DNA of 51,378 nt from positions 1-51,378 of the IMG/VR virus record IMGVR_UViG_3300011013_000017; one strand, given 5' to 3'. Position numbers and translations under genes: made by a program. Below the pieces are notes generated by a model, which was not told the origin of the DNA, searched no databases, and worked only from the letters and a program-made list of their open reading frames with translations. The stretch is from a virus. Below are positions 15,947 through 35,796 of this stretch, in pieces (the stretch's first letter is position 1; every line of letters begins with the position of its first letter).

Positions 15947-16621
15947 TTATAGCCTATGTGTCATAATAAAATTTTCAAAAATAACATTGATTAAATAAGT
16001 CTCATAAAAATATTCGAGAATTTCTCTAGGCGTATTTCCATTGTCTTTTGTGAATATAATTAAATTATCATATAAAGATTTATCATTATTTATCTTATAA
16101 TCTAAATATATGTAAATCAAGACAAATAATTTATTATTTATTTCAGGAGGAGGAGATATCAATTCTGTATTATCTTTTTCATAATCTTTAAATGAAGATT
16201 GGTCTTGGTGATAATTTAAAATGATATCTCTATCAAATGTTATCCCATCCAATGTCGTATTTGCAGGATCCAATCTGTATTCTAATAATTTATCCAAAAT
16301 TAAAATGTCATCTGATTCTATATTAAAAAGATTCATTCCAGAAGTGTTATTTGGAACCAAATCAAGATAAATCGTATCTGAAAATATCTTGCCTCTTGTT
16401 AAAAGGGTTTTATCCCATTGTGTTAAAACATCGTTTGGCTGATATAAATAATCATATGTGGTGGAATCATATGATTCATTAAAAAGGAGGGAAATCAATG
16501 ATGTTTTATAATTTTCATTCCAATTTAATTCCGGGGAATATCTAATAAAATCTCTATTTAAAAAATTATTTTTAAATGTCTTATTAATCCAATATAAAAA
16601 ATCAGGAACTATATAATGCAT
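15947..16621 (-). CDS. Unknown protein paired with the gpI-like wedge gene
   Basis: 224 residues. Aromatic- and Asn-rich, with helices near the ends (YIVPDFLYWINKTFKNNFL; FYETYLINVIFENFIMTHRL) and acidic loops between. No domain recognised. The ribosome binding site is AGGGG seven bases before the ATG, with the recurrent leader motif just upstream. Position directly before a wedge gene suggests a baseplate component, perhaps a wedge partner. Confidence 0.6.
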   Translation of the reverse strand: MHYIVPDFLYWINKTFKNNFLNRDFIRYSPELNWNENYKTSLISLLFNESYDSTTYDYLYQPNDVLTQWDKTLLTRGKIFSDTIYLDLVPNNTSGMNLFNIESDDILILDKLLEYRLDPANTTLDGITFDRDIILNYHQDQSSFKDYEKDNTELISPPPEINNKLFVLIYIYLDYKINNDKSLYDNLIIFTKDNGNTPREILEYFYETYLINVIFENFIMTHRL

Positions 16622-16633
16622 AAATAAACCCCT

Positions 16634-16652
16634 TTTTTATTTTGTTAAAATT
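16634..16652 (-). promoter_or_regulatory. Recurrent leader motif
   Basis: Coding-strand AATTTTAACAAAATAAAAA, 13 bases before the ATG of the 224-residue gene, overlapping its AAGGGG ribosome binding site region. Confidence 0.45.
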
Positions 16653-16710
16653 ATTGAAATGCTTTATTTTATAGATAAATAAGAGAGGGGAAGATAACAG
16701 CTTGATAAAA

Positions 16711-16758
16711 TAAAACAGACTTCTCTTATTTATATATCGATAAGAGAAGTCCGTTTTA
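16711..16758 (-). terminator. Terminator after the candidate holin gene
   Basis: GACTTCTCTTA pairs with TAAGAGAAGTC (11 bp), extended past one mismatch by six A-T/G-C pairs. Both sides carry T-rich flanks, so it probably works bidirectionally. It lies about 26 bases past the stop of the 148-residue membrane protein and separates the lysis genes from the wedge operon. The rest of the 162-base gap holds only the leader motif. Confidence 0.9.
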
Positions 16759-16783
16759 TTTTTTATTTTATTTAGGGGTTTAA

Positions 16784-17230
16784 TTAAATAAAAACATTGA
16801 CATTTCTTTTCTTCAAAACATTTATCAAAGCATTGTCTTGCCCACCACTTTCATATGCCAATAATAATTGATATAATTCATCTTTGTTCATGCCCATTTT
16901 TCTTCCAAGTTCAATAAGCTTTTCAATTTCAGTCGTATCTTTGGCTCTGGAGATTTTAAATCCTTCCCTAATTGCCGCAATAGTAGAAATAACCGCAGTG
17001 TTTACGGTTCCCCAAACTTGGCCCGAAATATATCCTTTTATTAAAAGATATGTGGAAACGATTAATATTGAAAAAATAATCCAAACCTTAACTGAAATTA
17101 AAGTTTCCAATACTTTTTTACTGACGCTAATAATATAATCTTTATTAAAAGTATTTTTCTTTACCGGCACGGGTGTCGATGTCTTTTTCTTAGCCGGTCT
17201 TCCTCTTTTTTTTGTTGTTTTTTTTGCCAT
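16784..17230 (-). CDS. Membrane protein with basic AT-hook-like N-terminus, candidate holin
   Basis: 148 residues. Residues 1-30 are strongly basic and include KKRGRPAKKK, an AT-hook-like core. One clear membrane segment (VWIIFSILIVSTYLLIKGYI, about 49-68) is followed by a second weaker hydrophobic helix (WGTVNTAVISTIAAI) and then a charged helical tail with GRKMGMNKDELYQLLLAYESGGQ. It lies 28 bases downstream of the lysozyme gene, which suggests a holin or other lysis-linked role. The basic tail would then face the cytoplasm. Not a recognised holin family. Confidence 0.5.
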   Translation of the reverse strand: MAKKTTKKRGRPAKKKTSTPVPVKKNTFNKDYIISVSKKVLETLISVKVWIIFSILIVSTYLLIKGYISGQVWGTVNTAVISTIAAIREGFKISRAKDTTEIEKLIELGRKMGMNKDELYQLLLAYESGGQDNALINVLKKRNVNVFI

Positions 17231-17258
17231 TTTTTTAATCCTTCAATATATCGATACA

Positions 17259-17690
17259 TTAATATAACATTTTATTATATCTCATCATTTTAGATAATTC
17301 CAATGCTCGATGCCCAACTTGATCTGCCCATCGAGAATCAAGCATTTCATCTGCCGCTTTCCCATAATTTTCTTCTTTCAAAGCTCTTAACATATTTTTA
17401 AATTTCAACAATTTAGTTAACCCTAAATTAAATAACATATCGCATATGACCATTTTTCTGATTACTGATAAGTGATCCAAATCCAATTTTAAAAAATCTT
17501 CCTCGACTCTTTTAAAATCATATTCAAATATGTATTCCCAAATATAATCTGGCAAATATGAACCAAGAAGAAATGCGTGACCATATCCTCCAGTTAAGAC
17601 ACCAACCGTATCTTTATAAATTCTATCTCTATATCCTTCATGTCTTTTAATCATATCTTGACATAATTTTCGATTTTCTTCATAACTCAT
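17259..17690 (-). CDS. Endolysin, T4-type lysozyme (GH24 muramidase)
   Basis: 143 residues. The catalytic triad spacing matches T4 lysozyme exactly: Glu18 in RHEGYRDRIYKD, Asp27 and Thr33 in GVLTGGYGH (E-8-D-5-T). The rest follows the GH24 helical domain, with a C-terminal WADQVGHRALELSKMMR in place of the usual W...P.RA..... segment. It cleaves the MurNAc-GlcNAc bond of peptidoglycan. No signal peptide, so a holin is needed. It sits between a PLA2-like protein and a candidate holin. Confidence 0.93.
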   Translation of the reverse strand: MSYEENRKLCQDMIKRHEGYRDRIYKDTVGVLTGGYGHAFLLGSYLPDYIWEYIFEYDFKRVEEDFLKLDLDHLSVIRKMVICDMLFNLGLTKLLKFKNMLRALKEENYGKAADEMLDSRWADQVGHRALELSKMMRYNKMLY

Positions 17691-18652: not shown

Positions 18653-19477
18653 TTAAAGATATGTTGCGGGCCAAGAAGCCTTATCTTCAATTCTTGTTTT
18701 TATATCCATAAATGTTTCAATAGTTTGAGCGGCTGTAATTTCATCCCAAAAACTTTTTGCAGTATTATATGTTCCAAGAAAAAAATCAGTTAACGCATTT
18801 GAAATTTCTTCAAATTCAGCATTTGTTAAATTTAAAAACCCATCCAGTGTCTGAAAAATATCACCATCATTTCTTTTTCCCGCTGCATAACGAGCGGCTT
18901 CTGAATTAAATTTATTCATTGCATCCTCTCGCGTATCAATAGGATGGTCATTCCAAACAATGCCGCAAGATTGAATCATTTTTTTAGTTTCTTCACAATG
19001 AACATACATATTATATCTTATTTCTTCTAAATTTTTTGGGACAATATTAAAATTCATTTTAATTACTTCATTTTCTGAATCAAAAACATAGTCAACTGAA
19101 TTTATGATATGAAAAAATTCATCAATATCAGTTCCACTGCCATCAAGAGGATACCAACCCAAAGCTTTTAATTCAGCATCCGTTAATGAATCCAAATTAT
19201 CATATTCCTCTTGTGTTTTGGGATCCACCCATGTTTCAGGCAAAGCTTTTGGTTTAATTAAAATAGTTTGTGTTTCACTATCATAATATCCATATGATGC
19301 GCGCCCTACTCCAACGCTATAATCATCTGAGCCCATCAAAGGAGCATCCGACACACTGTGTTTCATAGCTTCCATTTTTTTTGTATTTTTTTTAACAGAT
19401 TTTCTGCTTTTTTTAGTTTTCTTTGTTTTTTCAGTTTCTTTAATCTTCGCTGTTTTTGAGGATTTTTTAGATACCAT
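18653..19477 (-). CDS. Tail fibre assembly/chaperone-like protein with basic N-terminal extension
   Basis: 274 residues. Residues 1-35 are almost only Lys/Thr/Ser (KKTKKSRKSVKKNTKK). The body has the pattern of fibre-chaperone-like (DUF4376-type) proteins: ALPETWVDPKTQEEYDNLDSLTDAELKALGWYPL, then a helical half with a loop EDAMNKFNSEAARYAAG and a terminal helix. It is a paralogue of the proteins at 20459-21094 and 28592-29269, which lack the basic extension. Assignment as chaperone is by pattern and neighbourhood. Confidence 0.6.
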   Translation of the reverse strand: MVSKKSSKTAKIKETEKTKKTKKSRKSVKKNTKKMEAMKHSVSDAPLMGSDDYSVGVGRASYGYYDSETQTILIKPKALPETWVDPKTQEEYDNLDSLTDAELKALGWYPLDGSGTDIDEFFHIINSVDYVFDSENEVIKMNFNIVPKNLEEIRYNMYVHCEETKKMIQSCGIVWNDHPIDTREDAMNKFNSEAARYAAGKRNDGDIFQTLDGFLNLTNAEFEEISNALTDFFLGTYNTAKSFWDEITAAQTIETFMDIKTRIEDKASWPATYL

Positions 19478-19504
19478 AATTCAATACCCCTTTGCTATTT
19501 TTGA

Positions 19505-19526
19505 TATTTTTAATTTGTTAAAATTT
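19505..19526 (-). promoter_or_regulatory. Recurrent leader motif
   Basis: Coding-strand AAAATTTTAACAAATTAAAAAT, 28 bases before the 274-residue gene and overlapping the stop codon of the gene before it. Confidence 0.45.
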
Positions 19527-20432
19527 TCTTTTAAGTCTTAATGTCTTAAAAAAGATAACATTATATTTCTTTTGTATCTCATTCTTTGCCCATTCAATAT
19601 CCATAATGGATACGATATCTACAAAGCCAAAAAGATATATAATATATTCATCATTTAAAATATGTTGTGGAATATAAAAAATATCATTGGATGTTTTTTT
19701 AAAATCGGATTTTTTAAATAAAAATAAATCTTTCCATTTTGCTGTTTTTGAAATTGGATATTTTATTTTCCAATTTTTATCAAGCGATTCATTTTTTATG
19801 ACAAAATATTCAGATGTTCTTTTATTGATGATAAAATAAATATCTTGTTCTTCTTCTTTAATAATATTCCTTTCATTTGCCATATGTGTTTCTATATTTT
19901 TTTGAATATCATTACCAAATTCTTTATATTTCTCAGTTCCCCAAAAGACATCGAATCTTGGTTCATTTATTTTAATAAATTCAAATAAACAATATTCTGG
20001 AGTATATCCTTTATAATTTTGAAATTTTAAAAAATATTCCGGAGTAAATAATAATTTTATATTATCTGTATATATTGATCTTTCGTATGCTCCATTCAAT
20101 TGAGAGGCAGTCATATTATATTTTTTCAATTCCACTTTTTCATTCATAAATTTATGACATGGAGAAGAATTGAATAAACATTTATCCATTGTGCATGGAA
20201 CTATTTTCTTTGTATTCAAGAAAACAGGAACATAACACCTGTCAATCTCTTTAAGATTTTGTTCAATATTAAATTTTAAAAATTCCTCCTTGCTTTCAAA
20301 ACCTAAATTTAACAAATCCCCTTTTAATACAAAATCATCAGATGGAGACGCTTGGCCTTTTATTCTAGTTATATTATTATATTTATTGATTAAATGTCTG
20401 CCTTTTATCAAAGTTTCGATATTCGTCATCAT
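19518..20432 (-). CDS. Unknown protein with EPRFDVFWG motif, paralogue of 27951-28589
   Basis: I choose the ATG at 20432, which has AAGGA five bases upstream; the frame also allows a TTG at 20450. About 304 residues. The N-terminal part contains VPCTMDKCLFNSSPCHKF, a Cys cluster that could bind metal. Later it has INEPRFDVFWGTEKYKEFGNDIQKNIE, nearly repeated in the 27951-28589 protein (KEPRFDVYWGMDRIKKF). Both copies lie directly downstream of a DUF4376-type gene, so the pair moves as a module. Function unknown; an accessory to fibre assembly or attachment is a guess. Confidence 0.6.
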   Translation of the reverse strand: MMTNIETLIKGRHLINKYNNITRIKGQASPSDDFVLKGDLLNLGFESKEEFLKFNIEQNLKEIDRCYVPVFLNTKKIVPCTMDKCLFNSSPCHKFMNEKVELKKYNMTASQLNGAYERSIYTDNIKLLFTPEYFLKFQNYKGYTPEYCLFEFIKINEPRFDVFWGTEKYKEFGNDIQKNIETHMANERNIIKEEEQDIYFIINKRTSEYFVIKNESLDKNWKIKYPISKTAKWKDLFLFKKSDFKKTSNDIFYIPQHILNDEYIIYLFGFVDIVSIMDIEWAKNEIQKKYNVIFFKTLRLKRKF

Positions 20433-20458
20433 AAATATCCTTTTTTCCAAATTTTAAA

Positions 20459-21094
20459 TTAAATCCAATTATTTTTATCTTCAATTTCAATAATAATATG
20501 TTTTAATTCGTCAATCGTTTCTGATTTCTTAATTTCATTCCAAAAATCTGAATAAACTCTATAAATATGTTGAAAATAATTTCTTATATTCTCCCATAAT
20601 TCAATTATTTCATCGCTTGATAAATACATAGGGATAGAATTAATTATTAATAGATTGTTTTCCCCATTTTTTATATTATTTTTTATTGCAATATATTCCA
20701 TATTTAATTTGGTAAGAAAATCAGAATCTAAAAGTACGACAATATTCTTTTTCCCCCATTTATAACCCAAATTTTGAATTGTTTTTAATGTCTCATCAAG
20801 TTTATCGAAAATATTTTCTTTTATATCTGATATTGATTTTTCTTTTCTTATATAATCTCTTGTCACAATATCTTTTTCTGAATCATAATACCAATCTGTT
20901 TTTTCTAATATTTCAAAATATGAATTATACTCTATGGGTTCATCTATGACTTCTTTCCAGCCAAGTTTAAATATTTTTTTAAGAGGGAGGTTATCAAATC
21001 CAGAATATGTTTTTCCTGTCTCTGGCTCTGTCCAGACTTTTGGAGCCATCTGAGGGTTTTCCATTATCACACCATTTTTAACATAAGCTATCAT
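20459..21094 (-). CDS. Tail fibre assembly/chaperone-like protein
   Basis: 211 residues. N-terminal domain MAPKVWTEPETGKTYSGFDNLPLKKIFKLGWKEV follows the 'W..P.tgk...gf..L....L..lGW' pattern of fibre-chaperone-like proteins. The C-terminal half is helical and ends FWNEIKKSETIDELKHIIIEIEDKNNWI, closely resembling the end of the 274-residue paralogue (FWDEITAAQTIETFMDIKTRIEDKASWPATYL). It lies directly downstream of a fibre-tip-like gene. Confidence 0.6.
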   Translation of the reverse strand: MIAYVKNGVIMENPQMAPKVWTEPETGKTYSGFDNLPLKKIFKLGWKEVIDEPIEYNSYFEILEKTDWYYDSEKDIVTRDYIRKEKSISDIKENIFDKLDETLKTIQNLGYKWGKKNIVVLLDSDFLTKLNMEYIAIKNNIKNGENNLLIINSIPMYLSSDEIIELWENIRNYFQHIYRVYSDFWNEIKKSETIDELKHIIIEIEDKNNWI

Positions 21095-21836: not shown

Positions 21837-22208
21837 TTAAGTCCTAGATATATCTAATCCAACAACATAACATTCAACATGCGCCCCATCTTCACAATAA
21901 AAAAATAATCTATCTGTCTTTCCGCCGGTAGATAATGAAGGAGGGCTACCTTGAGGAAAAAAAATATTTGGGTCCCATGTTATCGCGTAATCCCCACCCC
22001 CAGTCAATTCAATAGTGACTCTTCCAATATTTCCGGCAGAAGGCAATTCTCCAATAATGACTTCTATATTCGATTCTATTGTATATTTTAATCCAACTTT
22101 AGATGTTAAATTCAATACAATTGAATCTACAACACCTAAATTGGAAAATAAATAATCAGGAACTACATCTCCAGTTATTTTTCTGCCAAAAGGAATTAAT
22201 CTGTTCAT
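21837..22208 (-). CDS. Small fibre tip-like protein
   Basis: 123 residues. N-terminus NRLIPFGRK resembles ERLIPWNPEE of the 64-residue protein at 32768-32962, suggesting a common attachment tag. The remainder is one beta domain (IGRVTIELTGGGDYAITWDPN, then GSPPSLSTGGKTDRLFFYCEDGAHVECYVVGLD) shared with the C-terminus of the next gene downstream. Immediately follows the radical SAM gene, with two bases between. Confidence 0.6.
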   Translation of the reverse strand: MNRLIPFGRKITGDVVPDYLFSNLGVVDSIVLNLTSKVGLKYTIESNIEVIIGELPSAGNIGRVTIELTGGGDYAITWDPNIFFPQGSPPSLSTGGKTDRLFFYCEDGAHVECYVVGLDISRT

Positions 22209-22210
22209 AA

Positions 22211-23530
22211 TTATGCTCTCTTGTTTTTATATTTGTTAAATGTTGTTTTTTGTAATCTTTTATATAATCCAGGATATTCATTCATATTTGAATTTAATTT
22301 TTCTATACTTTCCAGCCCATCCGCTTCTGAATAAGGTAATATACAATTTTTATTTTTATAAATTGAATAATTAAATTCTCTGCAACTCCTAAATAATTTA
22401 GGTTTCCCAATTTTATTGGTCATATTTAAAAATAAATCTGATAGTTTTTCATTTTTAACATTCCCAAAACTAATGGGGAGAAAATCACATGGCATTAATT
22501 CTCCAGTTTCAGATATATAAGAAATTTGAATTCCTGCTCCGCACCCCATATTATCTTTACTTTCATGGCATGAATAAAAAGATATCTTTGGCATAAATAA
22601 TCTTCTGTTTGCCTTCTTCTGAATTTCTATTAATCTTTCTCTGTCTTCATTATTATATAAAATATCATCTAAATTATTTTTTGAATAATATAAAGAACCC
22701 ATAGGAATAGGCTCTAAAATTTTGATTTCATCTGCGCCATAATTTCTTAGAAATTTAAATAACGGGAATAATTTTTTCTCATCTATATATTCTTTTCCAA
22801 TAACAAGTTGGGCATTTACATATAAACCTGCTTGGTTTGAAGAATAAATGGCCATTAAAGATCTATTGAAATCTTTTTTATTTTTAATAGAATTGCTTCC
22901 AGGAGTGAATAAATCCATTCCGACTTCGACTGAAAACAAACCTGCATCTTTTAATGCAGACGCCATATTCACATCGAGTTTATGCCCAGAAGTCCTTAAA
23001 TTTATTGTAATATCATCATTAATATATTCAATTAATTCCAATAAATCTTTTCTTAAAAGAGGTTCCCCGCCCGTAATGCTAATAATAGACACACCTATTT
23101 CATTTAATTCATCAAAAATTTTTTTCCATTCATCTGTTGTTAATTCTTCTCCACTTGATCTTTCTCTGGCAGAACAAAAATCACATTTATTTACACATTT
23201 TCTTGTAAGACAAACGCTCATCATCGTAGGAGCTTTTCTAATTCCATGAATCTGTTGTAAAAACATTTTATCTTTATCTTGAACAGATTCAATCATTTTA
23301 ATCATCGATTCCGATGGAATTGGAGGAAACCATGGATTCGTTAAATATTTATCTTCATGTTTTCTGATAGTTTCGTCTCTAATCAAATAAAATAATAATC
23401 TTATATAATTTCTAAATGTAAAAGATTTGTCATTCTTTTTATATAATTTATAAATTCTTTTCAAAAAAGAAAGAAATTTAATGTCAACTGACATTCTCAT
23501 GAACATTAAAATATTATTTGGAGTAAACAT
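22211..23530 (-). CDS. Radical SAM protein with SPASM-like C-terminus
   Basis: 439 residues. The [4Fe-4S] motif CX3CX2C is at Cys112-Cys116-Cys119 (KCVNKCDFCSA). The SAM-binding GGEP motif lies at about 154-157. C-terminal cysteines in NMGCGAGIQISYISETGELMPCDFLPISFGNV fit an auxiliary-cluster (SPASM/twitch) region of PqqE/peptide-maturase-like enzymes. About 95 residues precede the barrel and look helical. It would generate a 5'-deoxyadenosyl radical to modify an unknown substrate. It lies 16 bases downstream of the KAS III homologue and is followed by fibre genes. Confidence 0.88.
   Translation of the reverse strand: MFTPNNILMFMRMSVDIKFLSFLKRIYKLYKKNDKSFTFRNYIRLLFYLIRDETIRKHEDKYLTNPWFPPIPSESMIKMIESVQDKDKMFLQQIHGIRKAPTMMSVCLTRKCVNKCDFCSARERSSGEELTTDEWKKIFDELNEIGVSIISITGGEPLLRKDLLELIEYINDDITINLRTSGHKLDVNMASALKDAGLFSVEVGMDLFTPGSNSIKNKKDFNRSLMAIYSSNQAGLYVNAQLVIGKEYIDEKKLFPLFKFLRNYGADEIKILEPIPMGSLYYSKNNLDDILYNNEDRERLIEIQKKANRRLFMPKISFYSCHESKDNMGCGAGIQISYISETGELMPCDFLPISFGNVKNEKLSDLFLNMTNKIGKPKLFRSCREFNYSIYKNKNCILPYSEADGLESIEKLNSNMNEYPGLYKRLQKTTFNKYKNKRA
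22224..22242 (-). promoter_or_regulatory. Leader-like motif inside the end of the radical SAM gene
   Basis: Coding-strand CATTTAACAAATATAAAAA, 16 bases before the 123-residue gene. Here it overlaps codons of the radical SAM gene, so it may be coincidental. Confidence 0.3.
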
Positions 23531-23546
23531 TCATTATTTTCCTATT

Positions 23547-24554
23547 TTACCATAAAACACTCATACATGAAATTGTAAAACCAGAACCCATTGATAATAT
23601 TCCAATATGATTATTATCTAAAGTAAGTCCCTTATCTGCAAGATATAGAGAGATTGGCCATGAAGCAGGACCTACATTTCCCAGCAATGGATAAGTGAAA
23701 TATAATTTATAATATGGAATCCCGGTCACATTTGATAAAACGTTTGAATGTGTATCCGAAACCTGATGAGGAATAAATAAATCAACATCATCAACTGACC
23801 AATTGGGAATGACTTTTTGAGAATATTCTTTCATTTCTTTAAGAACACCAACTCCTTCTTTAATCATATCTCTTGCTTTAACTCTTAATTCGCTCCTGTC
23901 TAAATCTCCAACGCATAATTTCCATGCATGGGAATCTGTTAAAAATGCTGAGCCATTTATAATATGGCCTGTTCTTGAATTTTCTGCATCTGTTAAAAGC
24001 ATCGAAACAGAACCAGAACCCAATGTCAAAGCGGCCAATGACAATTCAAGTTTATCCATATTTGCATCTTCTTTACATAATTTATCGGCAGTTTTTAATA
24101 AAATATCTCTTGAAGATTCTCCGGCTACAATCAATCCATATTTTATGGAATTGGTTTTTATCATATTTTCAATTACATTTACAGCAACTGTAAATCCCAT
24201 ACAAGCATTTGAAATATCAAATGACATACATTTATGATTCAATCCTAAATTATCATGCAAAACAATTGCCAAAGCCGGTTCTCCAAAATCCAATGAAACA
24301 GAACAATTAATAATGCATCCAATTTCATTTTTATCAACACCGGATTCTTCAATGCATTTTTTTGCAGACAACGTAGCTATATCAGATATTGATTTTCCAG
24401 GCTCCCATACTCTTCTTTCTTTAACTCCAGTTAAAGTTTCTAAAAACCCTTCTTCAAAACCAAATTTTTTAATAAATCCAGCCTCCAATTCTTTTGAAGT
24501 TAAAACTTCAGGGGCTTCAACATAAGAAATGTGTTCAATAGCAACTTTTTTCAT
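23547..24554 (-). CDS. Beta-ketoacyl-ACP synthase III (FabH/OleA-like) homologue
   Basis: 335 residues, the usual length. The thiolase-fold catalytic triad is intact: Cys118 in DISNACMGF, His263 in FIPHQVSDTH and Asn293 in LGNVGPASWP. Other family markers are SGVDKNEIGCIINCSV, IVAGESSRD and the closing GILSMGSGFTISCMSVLW. FabH enzymes condense acyl-CoA with malonyl-ACP; OleA-like members condense two acyl chains. Which reaction applies here cannot be told. A fatty-acid or polyketide-type enzyme is unexpected among tail fibre genes. Coupled with radical SAM and PanC-like genes in one direction. Confidence 0.92.
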   Translation of the reverse strand: MKKVAIEHISYVEAPEVLTSKELEAGFIKKFGFEEGFLETLTGVKERRVWEPGKSISDIATLSAKKCIEESGVDKNEIGCIINCSVSLDFGEPALAIVLHDNLGLNHKCMSFDISNACMGFTVAVNVIENMIKTNSIKYGLIVAGESSRDILLKTADKLCKEDANMDKLELSLAALTLGSGSVSMLLTDAENSRTGHIINGSAFLTDSHAWKLCVGDLDRSELRVKARDMIKEGVGVLKEMKEYSQKVIPNWSVDDVDLFIPHQVSDTHSNVLSNVTGIPYYKLYFTYPLLGNVGPASWPISLYLADKGLTLDNNHIGILSMGSGFTISCMSVLW

Positions 24555-24570
24555 ATTGTAATATCCTTTC

Positions 24571-24999
24571 TTATTTTATATTATTGTCATAACATCTTTC
24601 TTTATAATTATTATCATCTTTTTCTCTGATGACTTTTGATTCAAAATCTTTTAAAATTTGATATGTGTATTTATCGCTGACTGTATATGGAACTCCAACC
24701 GCCCAATCTCCTTCTTCCCATTCTAAAATAGAATCTGGCATTGCGGCAACCACTTCTTTTCTTAATTTATCATATGCCAAACCTTCTCCAGATAATGGAA
24801 AAGAGGCATAACATGGCATTGGGGCTAATGCAATATGTTCACGAACTTCAGGGTCTTCATAATATTTTATAGTGACTGCAATATCATAATGCGGAAATTT
24901 TTCAGGCAAATATTTAAATAATGGAGATTCAAAAAATCTTTTATCTTCAAATAAACTTTCAAAAAAAGCGAGTGACCACTCGCTATTGCGTATCTGCAC
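24571..24999 (-). CDS. Unknown protein without a convincing start codon
   Basis: The frame is open from the in-frame TGA that ends the preceding gene (25000-25002). Only a GTG directly after that stop is available, with no ribosome binding site, and a classical terminator hairpin is encoded within the first 12 codons. After that the frame reads as convincing protein: EKFPHYDIAVTIKYYEDPEVREHIALAPMPCYASFPLSGEGLAYDKLR. The next in-frame ATG is at that MPCY. It may be a decayed or translationally recoded extension of the 25000-25428 gene, or a separate gene with a rare start. Lies upstream of KAS III. Family not recognised. Confidence 0.45.
   Translation of the reverse strand: MQIRNSEWSLAFFESLFEDKRFFESPLFKYLPEKFPHYDIAVTIKYYEDPEVREHIALAPMPCYASFPLSGEGLAYDKLRKEVVAAMPDSILEWEEGDWAVGVPYTVSDKYTYQILKDFESKVIREKDDNNYKERCYDNNIK
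24961..24984 (-). terminator. Intrinsic terminator inside the metabolic island
   Basis: On the minus strand AGCGAGT-GGTC-ACTCGCT is followed by TTTTTT, a compact GC-rich stem with tetraloop and U-tract. It begins 16 bases after the TGA of the 25000-25428 gene and would end the radical SAM/PanC-like transcript. The KAS III and second radical SAM genes beyond it would then need read-through or their own promoter. Confidence 0.88.
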
Positions 25000-25428
25000 T
25001 CATTCGGTTGCCAATTGTTTAAACGGCTCTTTCATCATTTTTGCTTTTATTGGCCCTCCTTTATATTTCGATTCAAAAACGAATGGAATATATAAAGGAT
25101 TTGTCCACCACGATTGAAATATTATATCAATCCCATCTTTCATTCTTAATTTAACTTTATCTTCAATCGAAACATTAAAATTTGTAACGATATTTCTTTG
25201 GCCAGTATTCACAATGATATCATATTTTTTATATTTTTTATTTCTTAAAACATTTAAAATTATTTCTGCTTGTCTCCAACTTTCATCAATATCTTTTCTC
25301 AATGGGTTATCTTCCATATACCAATCATAACCTCTAAAAGAAATATATTCTTCTCTATTTTTTTTAATCAAATTATTTAAATGAACATAAGAATATGGAT
25401 TGAATTTGGATGTGGCTATAATTTTCAA
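25000..25428 (-). CDS. Unknown protein of the metabolic island
   Basis: 142 residues from a TTG start preceded by GGAG with eight-base spacing; the TTG overlaps the TGA of the PanC-like gene, so translation is coupled. Mixed alpha/beta: KIIATSKFNPYSYVHLNNLIKK at the start, then WRQAEIILNVLRNKKYKKYDIIVNTGQRNIV and a beta-rich IDIIFQSWWTNPLYIPFVFES. No known motif. Coupling to the PanC-like gene suggests a joint function. Confidence 0.6.
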   Translation of the reverse strand: MKIIATSKFNPYSYVHLNNLIKKNREEYISFRGYDWYMEDNPLRKDIDESWRQAEIILNVLRNKKYKKYDIIVNTGQRNIVTNFNVSIEDKVKLRMKDGIDIIFQSWWTNPLYIPFVFESKYKGGPIKAKMMKEPFKQLATE

Positions 25429-26294
25429 TATATTATTTCTCCGTTTATAATGAAAATGAAATTAAATGCTGCAAATGAAGAAAAAACAAATACGCAATAA
25501 TCAGATATTTCATCTATTTTTTCTAATGTTTTTAAATCAATCAATGAGAAATGATAATCTGGCAACATATTTGCATTCGCAACTTTATAAAATTCACTAA
25601 ATTTTGTTTCACCCTGTTTTAATAAATCATAAACTTTTTTTCTTATAAATGTATAAAATGCAGGGCCAGATCTATTTAATACATTTCCATCTTCATCTTT
25701 ATAAAATACCCAATGACAATCATCAATTAATGATTCAAAAGTTCTTTTTGGATAATTTTTATATTTATTTGAAAAACATTTATTATGCAATAAAGTTTGT
25801 AATACCATTTTGGGTCCGACAATATCTGTTAAATTTGTTTTTCTTTTAACATCGTTCATGGTTGCATGAATAAATAACGTCTCTATTGCTATTCTCGAAG
25901 ATAAGTTTAATCTTCTGCATTCATCCCTAATGATTGGATAATCTTCTTTTATTTTTTTATTCAATTTAAATAAATAATTTTCATCCGGCAATTTATTGAT
26001 GATAAAATAATCTATATCCGGATTTCTATTTCCAGACATTTTAACATCCATATAAGTCGGACGACCGGGATATTCAGTGTCATAAACAACAAAAGAAATA
26101 TATTCAAATAATTCATTATATTCAACAATAACAACATCAGATATTTTTCTCATTTCTTTTATAATATTTCTATGTGCTTTTTGTAATGGGCCTTGAACAC
26201 ATAATCTAAAAATTTTTTTATCTGTATTTTTTAAATCATCATATAAAATTTTTAAATCATTTTTATTTTCAATAATTTTACAGAGAGATTCCAT
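25425..26294 (-). CDS. Divergent pantothenate synthetase (PanC)-like protein
   Basis: 289 residues, near the PanC length. It matches PanC along its whole length by pattern: an N-terminal CKIIENKNDLKILYDDLK lead, then the nucleotide-binding turn VQGPLQKAHRNII and SDVVIVEYN where PanC has MG.LH.GH...I and DVVVVSI.VN. Next come GPKMVLQTL, YKDEDGNVLNRSGPAFYTF (PanC: RE.DGLA.SSRN.YL) and the C-terminal LPDYHFSLIDLKTLEKIDEI. Key residues are altered: the first His of HxGH is Gln38 and Gly is Ala40, His41 stays. So the fold is probably kept while the substrate or activity changed. The start overlaps the end of the radical SAM gene by 17 bases. Confidence 0.7.
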   Translation of the reverse strand: MESLCKIIENKNDLKILYDDLKNTDKKIFRLCVQGPLQKAHRNIIKEMRKISDVVIVEYNELFEYISFVVYDTEYPGRPTYMDVKMSGNRNPDIDYFIINKLPDENYLFKLNKKIKEDYPIIRDECRRLNLSSRIAIETLFIHATMNDVKRKTNLTDIVGPKMVLQTLLHNKCFSNKYKNYPKRTFESLIDDCHWVFYKDEDGNVLNRSGPAFYTFIRKKVYDLLKQGETKFSEFYKVANANMLPDYHFSLIDLKTLEKIDEISDYCVFVFSSFAAFNFIFIINGEIIY

Positions 26295-27222
26295 CTTTAG
26301 CCTTTCTATATTCCATCTTTTTCATATGTTCAGCAACTAAATATTGAAGTTCACAATATTTATTTTTAGAATTTGCATAAGGGCATCCGCCTTTGCATAA
26401 ATCATAATGTTTGCAAGAATAACATTTATCAGGCAATTTATATTCACATTTGATTTTTTCTTGAAAATCATCATCAAAAATATGTGCAACTGCTTTTTCC
26501 ATCATACACCGTCTGATATTTCCCTTCAAATCTATAAAAAAATAATCCTTCCCATAACCACAATAATTATCAGTTTTATATTTCATTCTGTGCATAAGAT
26601 TGAATGGATAATTATATTCACTATATCTGAAATCAGAATTTTCTAATCTCGTATAAACTCTATCTGCACATTCAACCATTTCTTTAATATCAGTATATTT
26701 ACATTCGGGCTCGAATAAATGGCACAATCTCAATGGGAATTTATATTCAATAACTTTATCTACAATTTCATCCATTCTTCTCATATTATATTCTGTCATT
26801 ATCACATTATATAAAAATATATTTTTTCTTTGAACTTTCAAACCTATTTGCATAATATCTTCAATAGGATCTTCATTTAAACTCAACATACATAAACCAC
26901 CGAGTTTATTATATTCTTTAACAATATCCAAATTTGCAGTCTGACAAAGATCGGTCACAAGTAATGTTTGAACACCTTTAAAAACAGATTTAATTTTTTC
27001 TGTGACATATAAAACTTTTTCTGTGCCAAAAGGATCACCGCCAGTTAAAGTAAATTTAACTCTTTTAAAATTCCCTTCGTCATAAACTTTTTTCATTCTT
27101 TCAATAATAAAATCTGCCATTTCTTCTGTAATAACTTCATCATTTCTTTCATCAGATAAACAATACCAACAATCTTTCGTACATTTATTAGTGATTTTAA
27201 TTCTGACTTTCAGACTCGCCAC
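26278..27222 (-). CDS. Radical SAM/SPASM protein (maturase-like)
   Basis: 314 residues from a GTG start with AAAGGAG seven bases upstream. The cluster motif CX3CX2C is at Cys14-Cys18-Cys21 (NKCTKDCWYC), and GGDP at 61-64 takes the place of GGEP. The C-terminus has a full SPASM-like cysteine set: Cys221, 239, 259, 267, 270, 276, 280 and 290, with CYSC.....CKGGCPY. Enzymes of this type (anaerobic sulfatase-maturating and RiPP-maturing enzymes) modify peptides or proteins, and a few act on small molecules. It is the first gene of the metabolic island. Substrate unknown. Confidence 0.9.
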   Translation of the reverse strand: MASLKVRIKITNKCTKDCWYCLSDERNDEVITEEMADFIIERMKKVYDEGNFKRVKFTLTGGDPFGTEKVLYVTEKIKSVFKGVQTLLVTDLCQTANLDIVKEYNKLGGLCMLSLNEDPIEDIMQIGLKVQRKNIFLYNVIMTEYNMRRMDEIVDKVIEYKFPLRLCHLFEPECKYTDIKEMVECADRVYTRLENSDFRYSEYNYPFNLMHRMKYKTDNYCGYGKDYFFIDLKGNIRRCMMEKAVAHIFDDDFQEKIKCEYKLPDKCYSCKHYDLCKGGCPYANSKNKYCELQYLVAEHMKKMEYRKAKDGISL

Positions 27223-27319: not shown

Positions 27320-27958
27320 TTACAATAAAAAAAGAGTGGATGCGGCTTTATTTACTCCTTTAGTAATGGATATTTCAACCCATGCCTGACCAATATCATT
27401 ATGAGCATTATCATTTATGGGATAATTTTTATCAGAAGTTGTCCAATAATATCCATATGATAAATACCATTCTAAATTAGCCACATCATCTGGTGTGAAA
27501 GGTTCTCCGGGGCTTTTTTCTGTGAATGTAGATGTATAGATAAGATAATTTGAATCACTTGCAAAATGTTGTTGAGTAAAATTCTGTCTTGGGTTGCCTA
27601 AACGAATTCCTAAATTAAAATAATTACCATCACCACTTGGCGTGACTGATGCCCCTGTTGATTGATTAATTCCACTTGAAACTTGAGCATATGATTTAAT
27701 ATAATTTACCGTATCGAATGGCCCAATCACAACAGGAGTTAAGGCAACTGAAATTTCAACCGACGTATCAGTCACTGCCCAAGAAGAATGTCCTCCATTT
27801 ACTGTATAGTTTTGTGTATCAGGAACTGCTTCATTTAAAACTGTCTTCCAAAAAGGTTCTTCCGGATAATGAAAAAATCCTCTATCAGGATTCGTCAAAT
27901 AAGGATCTGGGACGCTTCCAGGACCAATAGGTCTAAGGACTTGGATAATTTCAGCCAT
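27320..27958 (-). CDS. Putative fibre-associated structural protein
   Basis: 212 residues. The N-terminus VLRPIGPGSVPDPYLTNPDRGFFHYPEEPFW is Pro-rich and extended. The rest is a strand-rich domain with VEISVALTPVVIGPFDTVNYIKSYAQVSSG, YFNLGIRLGNPRQNF and WYLSYGYYW. Resembles fibre or carbohydrate-binding beta-sandwich proteins without clear family. It is the last gene of the fibre operon and starts inside the end of the preceding gene (8-base overlap). Confidence 0.55.
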   Translation of the reverse strand: MAEIIQVLRPIGPGSVPDPYLTNPDRGFFHYPEEPFWKTVLNEAVPDTQNYTVNGGHSSWAVTDTSVEISVALTPVVIGPFDTVNYIKSYAQVSSGINQSTGASVTPSGDGNYFNLGIRLGNPRQNFTQQHFASDSNYLIYTSTFTEKSPGEPFTPDDVANLEWYLSYGYYWTTSDKNYPINDNAHNDIGQAWVEISITKGVNKAASTLFLL

Positions 27959-28589
27959 TCATTAAATCCTCTCTCACGTTGTTTGCGAACAAAACAAATT
28001 TTTTTATTCTATCCATCCCCCAATAAACATCAAATCTAGGTTCTTTAATTTTAAGAACAGAACCTAAACAACGTGGGGGCATATCTGTTGATGGGGAAAC
28101 AAAATGACAACCTATACAAAATAAAGGATGGGGAATTAAAAGATCTTCTGTAACTCCATTAACTGCTTCGGCATATTGTTTATATTCAGCCACCATTTGG
28201 GATTTATCATGAGGCAAAACATAAAGAATTCCCCATTCTCTATTATAACAAGCTACATTTTGATCATTAAAAACACAAGGAACAATATTTCTCTTTGTGC
28301 ATCCATCTCCATTATAACAAAAATCTTCGGGATGAGGGGTTGTTGAATAAATATCTCTGACGGGTCTTATTCGGAAACAATTGTCATATTCCAATAAATT
28401 CATTGCTTCATTGAAAAATTGAAATTGTTGATATATTAAAAATCCTCCTCTTTTTGCCAATTCAAAAAGCATATCTTCCATATATGAAGATTTTTCAGGA
28501 TTATTATTTATTTTTCCACTATATTTATTTACAATATTCCGACAGTCAATTAATTTTTGAATGTTTTCATCGTTTAATTCTATGCTCAT
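27951..28589 (-). CDS. Unknown protein with EPRFDVYWG motif and Cys pairs
   Basis: I prefer the ATG at 28589, two bases after the stop of the preceding gene, over a TTG at 28604. About 212 residues. Cys-rich: CYNGDGCTKRNIVPC, then CIGCHF and CLGS, consistent with a metal site. The motif KEPRFDVYWGMDRIKKF near the C-terminus is shared with the 19518-20432 protein. Both sit after a DUF4376-type gene. Function unknown. Confidence 0.6.
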   Translation of the reverse strand: MSIELNDENIQKLIDCRNIVNKYSGKINNNPEKSSYMEDMLFELAKRGGFLIYQQFQFFNEAMNLLEYDNCFRIRPVRDIYSTTPHPEDFCYNGDGCTKRNIVPCVFNDQNVACYNREWGILYVLPHDKSQMVAEYKQYAEAVNGVTEDLLIPHPLFCIGCHFVSPSTDMPPRCLGSVLKIKEPRFDVYWGMDRIKKFVLFANNVREDLMNG

Positions 28590-28591
28590 TT

Positions 28592-29269
28592 TTAAACATT
28601 CCAAGGATTTAGATTTATAGTGTTATTTTCTATTTGTTCTCTTAATGTTTTTGTATCGCCTGTGTTAAGCATATCCGTAGCAATTTGAGATTCTAAATTA
28701 TATGAATCTTGAATTTTTCTGAAAACAAATTCCGCCATTGCAATTAAATCATTATTTGGCAAGGGCAAAGAAATAATAGAATTATTATCTAAATTGATAA
28801 ATTTCCATGTATCCGTGTCTTTTCTTATTCCATTCGATGCCGCAACATAAGATGAATTCAATGCATTTATGCTATCTTTATCTGTTAATATTTTTAAATT
28901 CATATTCATATATGAATATTCAACTCCGCTTGAAATATGTTTCATTCTATTTTCTTCTAAAATTTTAAAATTCAATGTCAAAGCTTTTGAAAATTCGTGC
29001 TCAACTTTAACATAATCTCTTTTGAGAATATTATTCTCTAATCTCCATGAAGAAAAAACAACAGATTCAAAATTTGGATCATAAGATGGATTTAAAGAAT
29101 CTTCATCAACAATGTACCAATCATATTTGTTTAATTCATTTAAACCACTTTTCAAAAGCTTATTAAATCCAGTTATTGTTTTCCCATCTGGAGTTTTCCA
29201 AATTGTCGGCAATTCTTCAACAATGTCCCCAACAATTTCTCCGTTTGTGAAATTTGCATAATGTGTCAT
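28592..29269 (-). CDS. Tail fibre assembly/chaperone-like protein
   Basis: 225 residues. N-terminus ANFTNGEIVGDIVEELPTIWKTPDGKTITGFNKLLKSGLNELNKYDWYIV follows the fibre-chaperone-like pattern seen in 20459-21094 and 18653-19477. A middle strand pair (NNILKRDYVKVEHEF) and a helical C-terminal half follow. Lies in the operon behind the large fibre gene, where such chaperones are normally found. Confidence 0.6.
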   Translation of the reverse strand: MTHYANFTNGEIVGDIVEELPTIWKTPDGKTITGFNKLLKSGLNELNKYDWYIVDEDSLNPSYDPNFESVVFSSWRLENNILKRDYVKVEHEFSKALTLNFKILEENRMKHISSGVEYSYMNMNLKILTDKDSINALNSSYVAASNGIRKDTDTWKFINLDNNSIISLPLPNNDLIAMAEFVFRKIQDSYNLESQIATDMLNTGDTKTLREQIENNTINLNPWNV

Positions 29270-29848: not shown

Positions 29849-32752
29849 TTAATCATTATATGCGGCTAATCTAACAATATATGCAGAAGATGATGAAGGC
29901 CACATACTTTGGTCTTTCAACCCACTTTCATGAAATTTAAACATATTTGACAATCCTCTTAATGTGGTATACCAATAAGATTGAGAAGCAGAAGAAGAAT
30001 TATTGCCATTAACTGCATAATAACTGGTCTTCAAATATGTTAAATCATCTGCACCATTATCAACTTCAGAGACTGCAAAAATATTATAAATGCTAGTGCA
30101 TCTAATATTTTTAATATAATGCCACCCTTGAGCAACACTTGGATCATTTTCAATCCAAAAATAATTTGTGGGGGGGCTTCCACTGGTTGCGTATGTAAAA
30201 TATCTATGATTCAAACAGATGCATAAATTTTTATAGTATGCTGAATTATGATAATGCAATTTTTCCAATGTCCCATCCGGAACCAACCATTTATTTCCAA
30301 ACAATGCTTCAAATCCAAACATGCATGCAAGTTTATTTCCATTTGGCGTGTTTACTAATCCTTTTCCAATTCCCAATTTCATAAATTCTTTGCATCCAGT
30401 TTTATCAGTCCCATTGCTTTCATCATATGGATAAACTTCAAATGCATTCCAAGTTTTATCAGCCGTTAAAGATAAAATTTGAAGCATTTGCCATATAGCA
30501 AAATGCATTCCAAAAAAGTTTTTTCCTGTGGATTTAGCTCTACTTCTAAGTTGAGGCGTATTAAAACTTGTCATTGGAGTCGCATTTGTTCGGCTAAACA
30601 GAGATGTATTATCTGTTGACGCTCTCACAGCAGAAACATAAACTTTATCATGTATTACATTATGAGCTTCATCACCAAAAGCAATTTGCCTTTGAGCATC
30701 AATTCCATTATAATTAAATGGATATTGAGAAATTAATATAATATGCCAATTATTTGCTGTTTCTGTGGTTGCCAAAACATAAAATTTTGGAACCTCTATC
30801 ATAAATTCACCGTCCAAACCTTCCGTATTTGAACCCATTTCCCATTCATCTCCGCTTTCAAAAATATCTGCATCCAAAAGTAAATTTCCATCAGTAACAG
30901 CTTCTACTCTGGCAATTTCATCTTTTGTAATATTATAAACCCAATCCCCAACCCTTGCTATATTATTTGTGGCAAAAGGAGTTGTTGAATCAACTAAATG
31001 AGATGATTCGGTCCCGTCACAGACCCCTGTATGTATTGGAGCTTCTCTTCTTGCAAAATTATCATTTCTTAAATAATAATTTACAGAATTTTCAAAATCA
31101 ATTTTATTATATAAATCATCCATTTCAGAGCTATCGATAATTTTATCGAATGCATATACCAAAGCTATTTCACCAATAAATTGATTTGAAGATAAATCAG
31201 AAGCTTTGATTCCTAAAATATTTGATCCCGTTGCTGATGCCAAAGCTGTTGTTTGATTATAAATATTAGATTTATTTAAATAAATATTAAAATCTGGTGC
31301 AGAATTATCATATGTGATTATTAAATTATATGGTGTATTTGTTGTTATTGAAGTCAAAGGAAACCAACTTGAGCCATCATAAAAATCAACTGTTCCGGTT
31401 CCCGTATGATTTAAAGCAATCATTATTCGATAAGGATTATTTAAATCCAATAAAACTTGTTCAATTGAATCATCATATGCTTTAAACCAAAAGGATAAAG
31501 TATAAACCGAGGGTTGATTTAATTCATATTTTAAATAACTCGGAGAACTTTGGCCAATAATCGCTTTATTATCAAAATCATTATCTGAATCATAAGTTAC
31601 ACTCGTTGGAATCATTCCATATTCACATCCAGATTCATCAAAAATATATGTATCGTCACTTTTTCTTTTCCCAAATGTTATCTTTGATCGAACATTTTTA
31701 TAACTCATTATACACCCTTTTATTTTATCATGAACAGGGTAATTCGTATAATCATTTTCGATTAAATTCGAATTTGTTAAAGTGATGGGTGTTAAAATAT
31801 CATTGACATAATCCCATTTGATTCCATATATTTCTCCAACATCTGAAGTCGTAAACGAAGTCGGTGAAGAATAAGACGATAATCCAATATTTTCTCCTTT
31901 ATATTGAACTCTCCAATAATATTGTGTATTTGATTGCAAAACTCCTCTTGGCAAATAAATAATTTCTTTGTTATAAATATTATCCAAATCTTCCCAGACA
32001 ATATTATTAAATAAAGAATCTGTGGCTATTTGCCAATTTGTAGATTCATGATTGTCGGTTTGACCAACAGCATTAAAAGGACTTGCCTGAAGATATGCAG
32101 ATTCTCCAATTCCAGTTGCCCCATCTACTGGATGCATATTTGTCGGAGTTTCTATATAAATATCAGATGTCGTAAATGAAGTCGGTTCTGAAAAATCAGA
32201 ATATGTGGTTTCTTCATCCTGATATCTAAATCTCCAATAATATTGAGTCGTTGTATTTAAACTATTGACTGCATATGATTGAACCGTTCCGACGTGTTCA
32301 TCAAAAACAATATTTGTAAAATCTATATCCGTCGCAACTTGTATATGCATATTTATCTGTTCTTTACCATATAAAGAATAATATTTTGAACCGGCCAAAA
32401 CAACAGGCATCGAAACCGCCGTGGACCCATCTGGCGGAGATAAATTAACTGGCCTTTCAATAGGATCAACAGATATTTGGCCAACAGGGACAAATTCAAA
32501 TTCATTATTTATTTGATTATAAGTCACGACATCTTGATGGCCAGGGGTCGAATCTGAAATAGGAATGTCTTTTAAAAAATATGCATTTGAAGGAATATAC
32601 CAATACTCTAAATCATTCCAAGGAGTTGTTCCGTCTCCTCTTTTTATTTTTTTAGTATCAGTTTCAATGCCTAATTCAGAATCTGCTAATATTGGATTTG
32701 CCGTTGACCATTGATCAGATGTCCCTCTTTTCATTTGAAAAACAACAGACAT
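29849..32752 (-). CDS. Large tail fibre protein with FN3, LamG-like and C-terminal receptor domain
   Basis: 967 residues. The N-terminus (QMKRGTSDQWSTANPILADSELGIETDTKKIKRGDGTTPW) is the classical fibre head. Residues about 98-200 and 203-305 form two FN3-like repeats, each ending YYWR.(R/Q)Y....YS..(T)SFTTSD. A LamG-like domain follows (YTLSFWFKAYDDS ... GEIALVYAFDKII). The C-terminal 350 residues form a mixed domain ending GLSNMFKFHESGLKDQSMWPSSSSAYIVRLAAYND, which resembles formylglycine-generating-enzyme/lectin-like receptor-binding ends. It is followed by two or three chaperone-like genes. Confidence 0.85.
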   Translation of the reverse strand: MSVVFQMKRGTSDQWSTANPILADSELGIETDTKKIKRGDGTTPWNDLEYWYIPSNAYFLKDIPISDSTPGHQDVVTYNQINNEFEFVPVGQISVDPIERPVNLSPPDGSTAVSMPVVLAGSKYYSLYGKEQINMHIQVATDIDFTNIVFDEHVGTVQSYAVNSLNTTTQYYWRFRYQDEETTYSDFSEPTSFTTSDIYIETPTNMHPVDGATGIGESAYLQASPFNAVGQTDNHESTNWQIATDSLFNNIVWEDLDNIYNKEIIYLPRGVLQSNTQYYWRVQYKGENIGLSSYSSPTSFTTSDVGEIYGIKWDYVNDILTPITLTNSNLIENDYTNYPVHDKIKGCIMSYKNVRSKITFGKRKSDDTYIFDESGCEYGMIPTSVTYDSDNDFDNKAIIGQSSPSYLKYELNQPSVYTLSFWFKAYDDSIEQVLLDLNNPYRIMIALNHTGTGTVDFYDGSSWFPLTSITTNTPYNLIITYDNSAPDFNIYLNKSNIYNQTTALASATGSNILGIKASDLSSNQFIGEIALVYAFDKIIDSSEMDDLYNKIDFENSVNYYLRNDNFARREAPIHTGVCDGTESSHLVDSTTPFATNNIARVGDWVYNITKDEIARVEAVTDGNLLLDADIFESGDEWEMGSNTEGLDGEFMIEVPKFYVLATTETANNWHIILISQYPFNYNGIDAQRQIAFGDEAHNVIHDKVYVSAVRASTDNTSLFSRTNATPMTSFNTPQLRSRAKSTGKNFFGMHFAIWQMLQILSLTADKTWNAFEVYPYDESNGTDKTGCKEFMKLGIGKGLVNTPNGNKLACMFGFEALFGNKWLVPDGTLEKLHYHNSAYYKNLCICLNHRYFTYATSGSPPTNYFWIENDPSVAQGWHYIKNIRCTSIYNIFAVSEVDNGADDLTYLKTSYYAVNGNNSSSASQSYWYTTLRGLSNMFKFHESGLKDQSMWPSSSSAYIVRLAAYND

Positions 32753-34809: not shown

Positions 34810-35796
34810 TTATTTATTTTTTAACTCATCTTTTGTGACATTTTCATCAATAAGAACCCAAGCGTCCATCATATAATTATTTACATAATTAAAAGATATA
34901 TAACCATATCCATTTTCCCCCCAGAAAGTCCCCCATGAGTTTTTGAATTTAACTAATTGTTTTTCTTTATTATATCCAACAGCGGCAACTGCATGGCCCC
35001 CATAAACCTGATTTGGATTTGCAGGATCTTTAACAATTCCATCAGAACCTGTTGTAAATATTTCTCTAAAACAAAGAATGCCAATAACACAAGGGCCATG
35101 ATCATGAAGAGCAACCAATAATTCATCTAAATTATTTATTCTATAATATGATTTTCCTTTTCCCCATCTTGCAATCATTGCCGCCCAAGGTTTGGGAAAT
35201 CCTTTTTCTCTATCATTATAAGGCCATGCTTTTTCAGGGGGAATTCCCAATTTACAAATTTGTTTCAATGCAAATCTGATTGAAGTTCCTTCCTGGTCAG
35301 GCCAAGGGTCAATTTCTTTTGCTTTATAATAAGCCCATTGTTCTGATAAATCATAATAAGGTTTTCTTCTTCTATATTTTTTGCCTTCTTTAATTTCTTG
35401 AATATATTCTTTTTGTTCTTGCCACTCTTTGACCGCAGTCACTGCCATCCCAACACATGTCCCAGCCTGACCTTGATCTTTAACGGGAGACATTTCAGAT
35501 GTATAATCAACAATATCAGGAAGATCAGCCCTTAAATTACCAACTGTTTTGAATAGAAAATCTCTTTCATCTTCAGGGTCTTTTACATATCCGGTTTTAA
35601 ATTTACTAATTAAAATTTCATCATCTGCATTTTCTACCATAGATTTATCTTCTAATATTCTATACGGTATTGATTTTAAATTCAAAAAATTTATAAAATC
35701 TTTTGAATTTTTTTCATCCATTTCAATTACCATCGGAGCCCGATATGTATTATTTCTAAAATTAAACGTAACATATGAAGATACTTTAATTTTCAT
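34810..35796 (-). CDS. Papain-like (C1 family) cysteine protease with short N-terminal module
   Basis: 328 residues. The active site is complete: oxyanion Gln108 and nucleophile Cys114 (KDQGQAGTCVGMA, six apart as in papain), His268 in VYGGHAVAAVGYN and Asn286 in FKNSWGTFWGENGYGY. No signal peptide. Residues 1-48 (VTFNFRNNTYRAPMVIEMDEKNSKDFINFLNLKSIPYRIL) form a small module that also occurs twice at the start of the propeller protein at 37876-39990, hinting at a shared virion attachment site. It may cut a host surface protein, process fibres, or act inside the host; none is shown by the sequence. Confidence 0.88.
   Translation of the reverse strand: MKIKVSSYVTFNFRNNTYRAPMVIEMDEKNSKDFINFLNLKSIPYRILEDKSMVENADDEILISKFKTGYVKDPEDERDFLFKTVGNLRADLPDIVDYTSEMSPVKDQGQAGTCVGMAVTAVKEWQEQKEYIQEIKEGKKYRRRKPYYDLSEQWAYYKAKEIDPWPDQEGTSIRFALKQICKLGIPPEKAWPYNDREKGFPKPWAAMIARWGKGKSYYRINNLDELLVALHDHGPCVIGILCFREIFTTGSDGIVKDPANPNQVYGGHAVAAVGYNKEKQLVKFKNSWGTFWGENGYGYISFNYVNNYMMDAWVLIDENVTKDELKNK

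Follow-up and report, generated by a model that had tools for sequence, protein, structure and literature searches.

The window analysed here, the whole 51,378 bases of IMG/VR virus record IMGVR_UViG_3300011013_000017 (G000), carries at 22211-27222 six leftward genes, transcribed in the order A-B-C-D-E-F from the minus strand, which encode a radical SAM/SPASM enzyme, a PanC-like protein, two orphans, an OleA-type ketosynthase and a second radical SAM protein. This island is laid out like an operon and lies among fibre genes, and fibre loci of related phages likewise hold radical SAM and PanC-like genes. Judging from the chemistry of these families, we tentatively propose that the cassette may be a swappable fibre-locus unit which builds a non-protein group and attaches it to a fibre or fibre-tip protein, a reading to which we give somewhat less than an even chance.

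An earlier, sequence-only reading had described six collinear leftward genes with tight or overlapping spacing inside a fibre locus, namely two radical SAM enzymes, a PanC-like protein, a KAS III and two unknowns. Indeed, all six open reading frames (ORFs) were present, their identities were borne out by family, profile and structure matches, and the flanks contained proteins with a fibre-tip domain on the left and paralogous fibre-accessory pairs on both sides. In transcription order the intergenic gaps are -17, -4, 0, +16 and +16 base pairs (bp), followed by +2 bp from F to the fibre-tip gene, and a Shine-Dalgarno-like purine-rich stretch lies upstream of A, B, C, E and F, with none in front of D. 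The GC content at third codon positions (GC3) is 0.14-0.20 in the island genes and 0.15-0.20 in their neighbours. An origin by contamination or chimera formation was rejected because GC and GC3 equal the phage values and the flanking genes are phage fibre genes. The base composition is consistent with long residence in the phage, and the overlapping same-strand genes with uniform GC3 suggest long joint retention. A promoter scan was uninformative.

The record is a fragment rather than a whole genome. Its major capsid protein (46653-48101) matched Gp23 (PF07068, 2.7e-29) in a profile search, with phiR1-37 and the AR9/PBS1 group as the best named matches, and the tail sheath gene (10439-12448) gave a clear family match. 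The capsid protein retrieved 11, later 23, related contigs at 59-67% identity. On the strength of the capsid and sheath matches and these relatives, G000 is assigned to an AR9/phiR1-37-like jumbo contractile-tailed phage. Radical SAM genes were found in 20 of the 24 clade records and were clustered beside fibre genes in three. In G010, seven radical SAM genes and an NAD epimerase follow a 764-aa (amino acid) collagen-like fibre related to the tip proteins of the window. In G419, a fibre anchor and a homologue of the window's papain-like protease (34810-35796) enclose two radical SAM blocks, and in G417 the same anchor is followed by three radical SAM genes; the radical SAM proteins of G417 are most like PapB, SCIFF and CXXX-repeat peptide maturases. 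In G002, a transglutaminase-like and PanC-like pair occurs twice (L019:11010-12444 and L020:2342-3777), each time near a collagen-like GYSG-repeat fibre, and glycosyltransferase genes are also present near such fibres; one of the two transglutaminase-like assignments rests on a 23% alignment. Judged by their predicted products, enzyme islands of the window's type recur after a fibre anchor gene in the relatives, though the gene set differs. As a separate observation, two NodU-type carbamoyltransferases (PF16861, ~1e-54; L168:10377-11921 and 16056-17513) are encoded inside the radical SAM blocks of G419.

Both radical SAM proteins of the island carry the CX3CX2C cluster motif (CTKDCWYC in A and CVNKCDFC in F). 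The two-auxiliary-cluster pattern CX9-15GX4C + CX2CX5CX3C + C is complete in A, where seven cysteines are arranged as CX12GX4C ... CX2CX5CX3C ... C, and A scored 27.9 against the TIGR04085 SPASM model (cut-off 27), its SPASM part resembling the anaerobic sulfatase-maturating enzyme (anSME; 1.7e-4). F has an N-terminal extension of ~100 aa and only the first half of this pattern; it is similar to MoaA/AhbD/PqqE, with weak matches to tetraether lipid synthase (47 bits) and HpnH (37 bits). No precursor of the type found with ribosomally synthesised and post-translationally modified peptides (RiPPs) adjoins A or F, and there is no space for a free ORF among the six genes.

Gene E scored 298 bits against NCBIfam PRK09258 (cut-off 285), and its best solved relatives (~1e-52) are deposited as 3-oxoacyl-[ACP] synthase III; we take these structures (PDB 3row/3fk5) to be Xanthomonas campestris OleA. 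The catalytic triad Cys118, His263 and Asn293 is invariant in the alignment with OleA, and Glu92, 26 residues before the Cys, is invariant with OleA and OleA-like sequences. Glu92, Cys118, His263 and Asn293 presumably correspond to OleA Glu117, Cys143, His285 and Asn315, the Glu presumably acting as a base. In the tree, E forms a long branch that groups with OleA, split 100/99 from FabH-type sequences. By these residues and this tree position, E is assigned to the OleA branch rather than to FabH, and a FabH-type boost of fatty acid synthesis by E was rejected on the same grounds. Pfam and NCBIfam scans of neighbouring genes recognised no OleB, OleC or OleD partner. A bacterial operon as the source of the island was also rejected, since OleA homologues in 80 loci and in 399 Pseudomonadota genomes, where the loci held only ~1.5 kb per side, had no adjoining homologues of other island genes. 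Single-protein scans of IMG/VR with E and with B gave no match, and the only other viruses with an OleA-type gene were two near-identical contigs of one unrelated phage. In these contigs (L188:9959-10957 and L189:9959-10957) the KAS III-like gene appears as single cargo, and no radical SAM gene was seen by eye among its predicted neighbours.

Gene B alone had no Pfam match. A profile of its three-member phage family matched PanC (1.2e-6), its paralogue in G002 matched PF02569 (2.4e-10), and the 50 best listed Foldseek PDB matches of its model, which is of low confidence (predicted local distance difference test score, pLDDT, 55), were all PanC. The GxKD lysine (Lys162), presumably the ATP/adenylate-site lysine, is kept and is invariant in the phage family. 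In the HxGH motif (GPLQKAH) the first His is replaced by Gln and the second is kept; the phage relatives in L019 and L020 keep both. The pantoate-binding Asn-x-x-Gln (NPxQ) is not present in B, its Gln being lost in the L020 paralogue too, and the SSRN motif is absent. Given that Gln replaces one HIGH histidine and that the pantoate site has not been retained, B likely uses a different carboxylate or has lost PanC activity, and the PanC-like label of the sequence-only reading does not imply PanC activity or pantoate as the role of B.

Nothing convincing was found for the orphans C and D in Pfam, NCBIfam, PHROGs or PDB, nor did phmmer find a relative among phage proteins; a single-sequence model of D was unusable (pLDDT 49). 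A perfect hairpin followed by T6 (24984-24967) lies within the first codons of D, which might act as a terminator between the two orphans; alternatively, D could start further downstream.

In support of the fibre reading, E retains its catalytic residues, and A and F have intact cluster motifs. Going by the enzyme families for substrates, order of steps, attachment and product, E would join two host acyl-coenzyme A (CoA) units, or transfer one, to yield a beta-keto-acyl piece. Hydrogen would next be abstracted by F and/or A, from that piece or from a fibre residue, allowing a bond beyond ordinary chemistry; A has the two-cluster SPASM domain typical of peptide-acting enzymes. B would activate a carboxylate as an adenylate and link it to an amine, and C and D may be accessory or carrier proteins. 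The likeliest acceptor would be the fibre-tip protein encoded directly after F, whose decoration would change the chemistry of the host-contacting surface.

Table 1 Predicted genes of the island and of the fibre locus around it
Feature	Positions	Strand	Remarks
Gene A, radical SAM/SPASM enzyme, 314 aa	26278..27222	-	GTG start behind AAAGGAGA
Gene B, diverged PanC (pantoate-beta-alanine ligase)-like, 289 aa	25425..26294	-	From profile, residues and model
Gene C, orphan, 142 aa	25000..25428	-	TTG start, 4-bp overlap with B
Gene D, orphan, 142 aa	24571..24999	-	GTG directly after the stop of C
Gene E, ketosynthase III of the OleA type, thiolase superfamily, 335 aa	23547..24554	-	From NCBIfam, residues and tree
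Gene F, radical SAM protein, 439 aa	22211..23530	-	PF04055 2.5e-21, motif CVNKCDFC
Fibre-tip protein, 123 aa	21837..22208	-	Starts 2 bp after F
Second fibre protein, 227 aa	21121..21804	-	Related to the tip protein 21837-22208
Left fibre-accessory genes (20459-21094, 19518-20450, 18653-19477)	18653..21094	-	Paralogous to the right pair
Fibre-locus protein, 212 aa	27320..27958	-	No family match; directly upstream of A, 97 bp gap
Right fibre-accessory pair (27951-28604, 28592-29269)	27951..29269	-	Paralogous to the left pair

The fibre-tip protein is related to a fibre-tip gene of G002 (L019:10628-11008) and to a collagen-like fibre of G010 (L030:9642-11936), and it and the second fibre protein have a fibre-tip domain in common with collagen-like fibres of relatives. 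The island is bracketed by the paralogous accessory pairs 28592-29269/27951-28604 and 20459-21094/19518-20450. A 967-aa fibre with an Mtd N-terminal domain (29849-32752) is possibly a target of the diversity-generating-retroelement type, judging from that domain. The papain-like cysteine protease of the window (PF00112, 1e-16) has its G419 homologue, at 49% identity, in a matching place.

Radical SAM genes also adjoin a distinctive kind of repeat protein in other phages. In G417 (L172:2716-7697) and G419 (L169:4026-10471) they lie next to genes for (CTC[NDQ]CNY)n repeat proteins. When 2.9 million viral contigs were scanned for at least two successive (CTC[NDQ]CNY) repeats, 39 loci (L190-L228) were returned, which are not independent cases because some are near-identical copies. 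The repeat protein was encoded at 38 of the 39 by the ORF method, and radical SAM-like genes were present in the fetched stretch at 35. Radical SAM-like genes numbered 126 in 389 kb at the repeat loci versus 0 in 392 kb around the capsid genes of the relatives, a motif-based comparison whose control is a different genome region with some overlapping loci. All seven radical SAM-like genes sampled from the repeat loci were confirmed as PF04055. Moreover, the three repeat proteins tested all end in Peptidase_S74, a fibre chaperone domain, and many repeat proteins end in the S74 domain or its SDxRLK start. Homologues (28-30%) of one repeat-linked radical SAM protein occur in 15 records of Campylobacter phages; in the cultured phage CP220 (FN667788.1), the homologue CPT_0184 (L229:8953-10122) lies four genes from CPT_0180 (CBJ93989.1, L229:5143-6747), a protein with six CTC[DN]CNY heptads.

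A 2010 report calls the radical SAM genes highly unusual, with 11 in CP220 and 12 in CPt10, and also records a 21-bp repeat (PMC2853527). This report and a 2012 report on IBB_35 describe many radical SAM genes in the three phages, with an interchangeable module of five, and suggest metabolic benefit, enzyme activation or DNA methylation as roles (PMC2853527, PMC3322345). In the openly accessible literature we found no paper linking the repeat protein with radical SAM genes. The repeat loci support the broader notion that radical SAM enzymes of phages may act on virion proteins; they are no proof for the window, because the window has no such repeat. The concentration of radical SAM/SPASM genes at the fibre loci of related and unrelated phages suggests chemical modification of the parts that touch the host. 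The sequence-only reading had suggested that the island could attach a modified acyl or amino group to DNA, a fibre protein or a host-directed small molecule; this concentration lends its fibre branch indirect support, which extends neither to its DNA branch nor to co-occurrence of the whole set. In a wider version, phages would remodel their own fibres by radical SAM chemistry: the window cassette would attach a ketoacyl/amide group to the tip, and a larger class, spread over many unrelated phages, would cross-link S74-type fibre proteins at their (CTCNCNY)n repeats. This would be an undescribed type of virion maturation, and we regard this version as speculative and rather doubtful.

Several observations weigh against the fibre reading. 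No obvious modification site and no substrate were identified in the window, and the Cys-repeat pattern, which would offer a candidate substrate, occurs nowhere in it. The replaced histidine may leave B inactive in the PanC sense. The exact six-gene set had no second instance among the 23 relatives, IMG/VR and INPHARED. It is not conserved in the clade, because the OleA-type gene occurs in 0 of the 23 relatives and PanC-like genes in G002 only, in two copies, apart from a weak match in G412; the co-occurrence that the sequence-only reading had put forward as a check was therefore not found, a PanC-like gene being confidently present in one other genome. These absences are weak evidence because the clade records are fragments. 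The contig likewise shows only this part of its genome, and the enzymes could sit in a variable locus merely because it tolerates cargo.

The main alternative is that the cassette makes a free acyl/amide compound, lipid- or antibiotic-like, which acts on the host or on competitors, with the fibre locus serving as a cargo site. The relatives of OleA and PanC act on free metabolites, the similarities of F extend to tetraether lipid synthase and HpnH as well as MoaA/AhbD/PqqE, the gene set is unique to this contig, and the window offers neither precursor peptide nor Cys-repeat substrate. However, no acyl carrier protein, transporter or thioesterase was recognised in the cassette by Pfam, NCBIfam and further family scans, the full SPASM motif of A is frequent in enzymes that modify peptides, and the other islands of the clade adjoin fibre genes, which in two cases encode relatives of the window's tip protein. 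We consider this alternative unlikely, though worth serious attention. Fibre loci are recombination hot spots, and the six genes might have separate roles and have gathered in a variable locus by chance, as the failure to find another genome with the same set would allow. This is improbable in view of the same-strand overlap and uniform GC3, which suggest joint retention; moreover, relatives have radical SAM and PanC-like genes at the corresponding site, a pattern unexpected for chance cargo.

The family names PanC and KAS III would fit a boost to host metabolism, the former raising pantothenate/CoA and the latter fatty acid synthesis during infection, but E carries the OleA glutamate and clusters with OleA instead of FabH, B lacks the expected pantoate-binding residues and one HIGH histidine, and neither the two radical SAM genes nor the fibre locus would be accounted for, so that we hold it very improbable. 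Least likely of all, at a bare fraction of the weight given to a free compound, is that the acyl/amino group built by the cassette ends up on bases of the phage DNA: radical SAM enzymes act in some phage thymine hypermodification pathways, but the base-hydroxylating, kinase and transferase genes of such pathways were not recognised among the window genes scanned, which show no DNA-modification gene and so leave the DNA branch of the sequence-only reading without positive evidence, and the cassette sits amid structural genes. The DNA methylation by phage radical SAM proteins mentioned in the IBB_35 paper was a guess of its authors (PMC3322345).

If the fibre reading is true, phages would widen host recognition past the twenty amino acids by means of non-protein groups on their host-contacting surfaces, phage radical SAM enzymes would gain a function testable at once in cultured phages, and fibre loci would be a place to seek new radical SAM reactions. 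If it holds for the class, it would represent a previously undescribed type of virion maturation. As it stands, the six-gene set is a variant of phage enzyme cargo. The sequence-only reading knew of no described phage pathway with this set, and we likewise found none in the openly accessible literature.

Each enzyme of the cassette has known counterparts. E aligns end to end with X. campestris OleA of olefin biosynthesis at 32-35% identity, with the Cys, His, Asn and OleA-specific Glu in common; in contrast, no OleB/C/D lies near E, and the radical SAM and PanC-like setting was not seen beside the bacterial OleA genes fetched. B resembles PanC in fold and length and retains one HIGH histidine together with the adenylate-site lysine, and it differs in the Gln at the first His, the absent SSRN and the changed pantoate Asn/Gln site. 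A and F have the cluster motif of PapB, the SCIFF maturase, anSME and AhbD/PqqE, and A has the full SPASM cysteine set, whereas the equivalog scores of both are far under the family cut-offs and no precursor peptide adjoins them.

As in the cassette, enzymes that possibly decorate the virion stand beside fibre genes in the glycosylation loci of phages, with clear glycosyltransferases in G002 and look-alikes seen by eye in G419. There is no glycosyltransferase in the window's cassette, for which C-C and amide chemistry is proposed instead. The accessible parts of the reports on CP220, CPt10 and IBB_35 mention no OleA- or PanC-like partner, and the Cys-heptad-repeat protein of CP220 has no counterpart in the window; yet these Campylobacter phages, like the phage of the window, combine a contractile tail with radical SAM genes.

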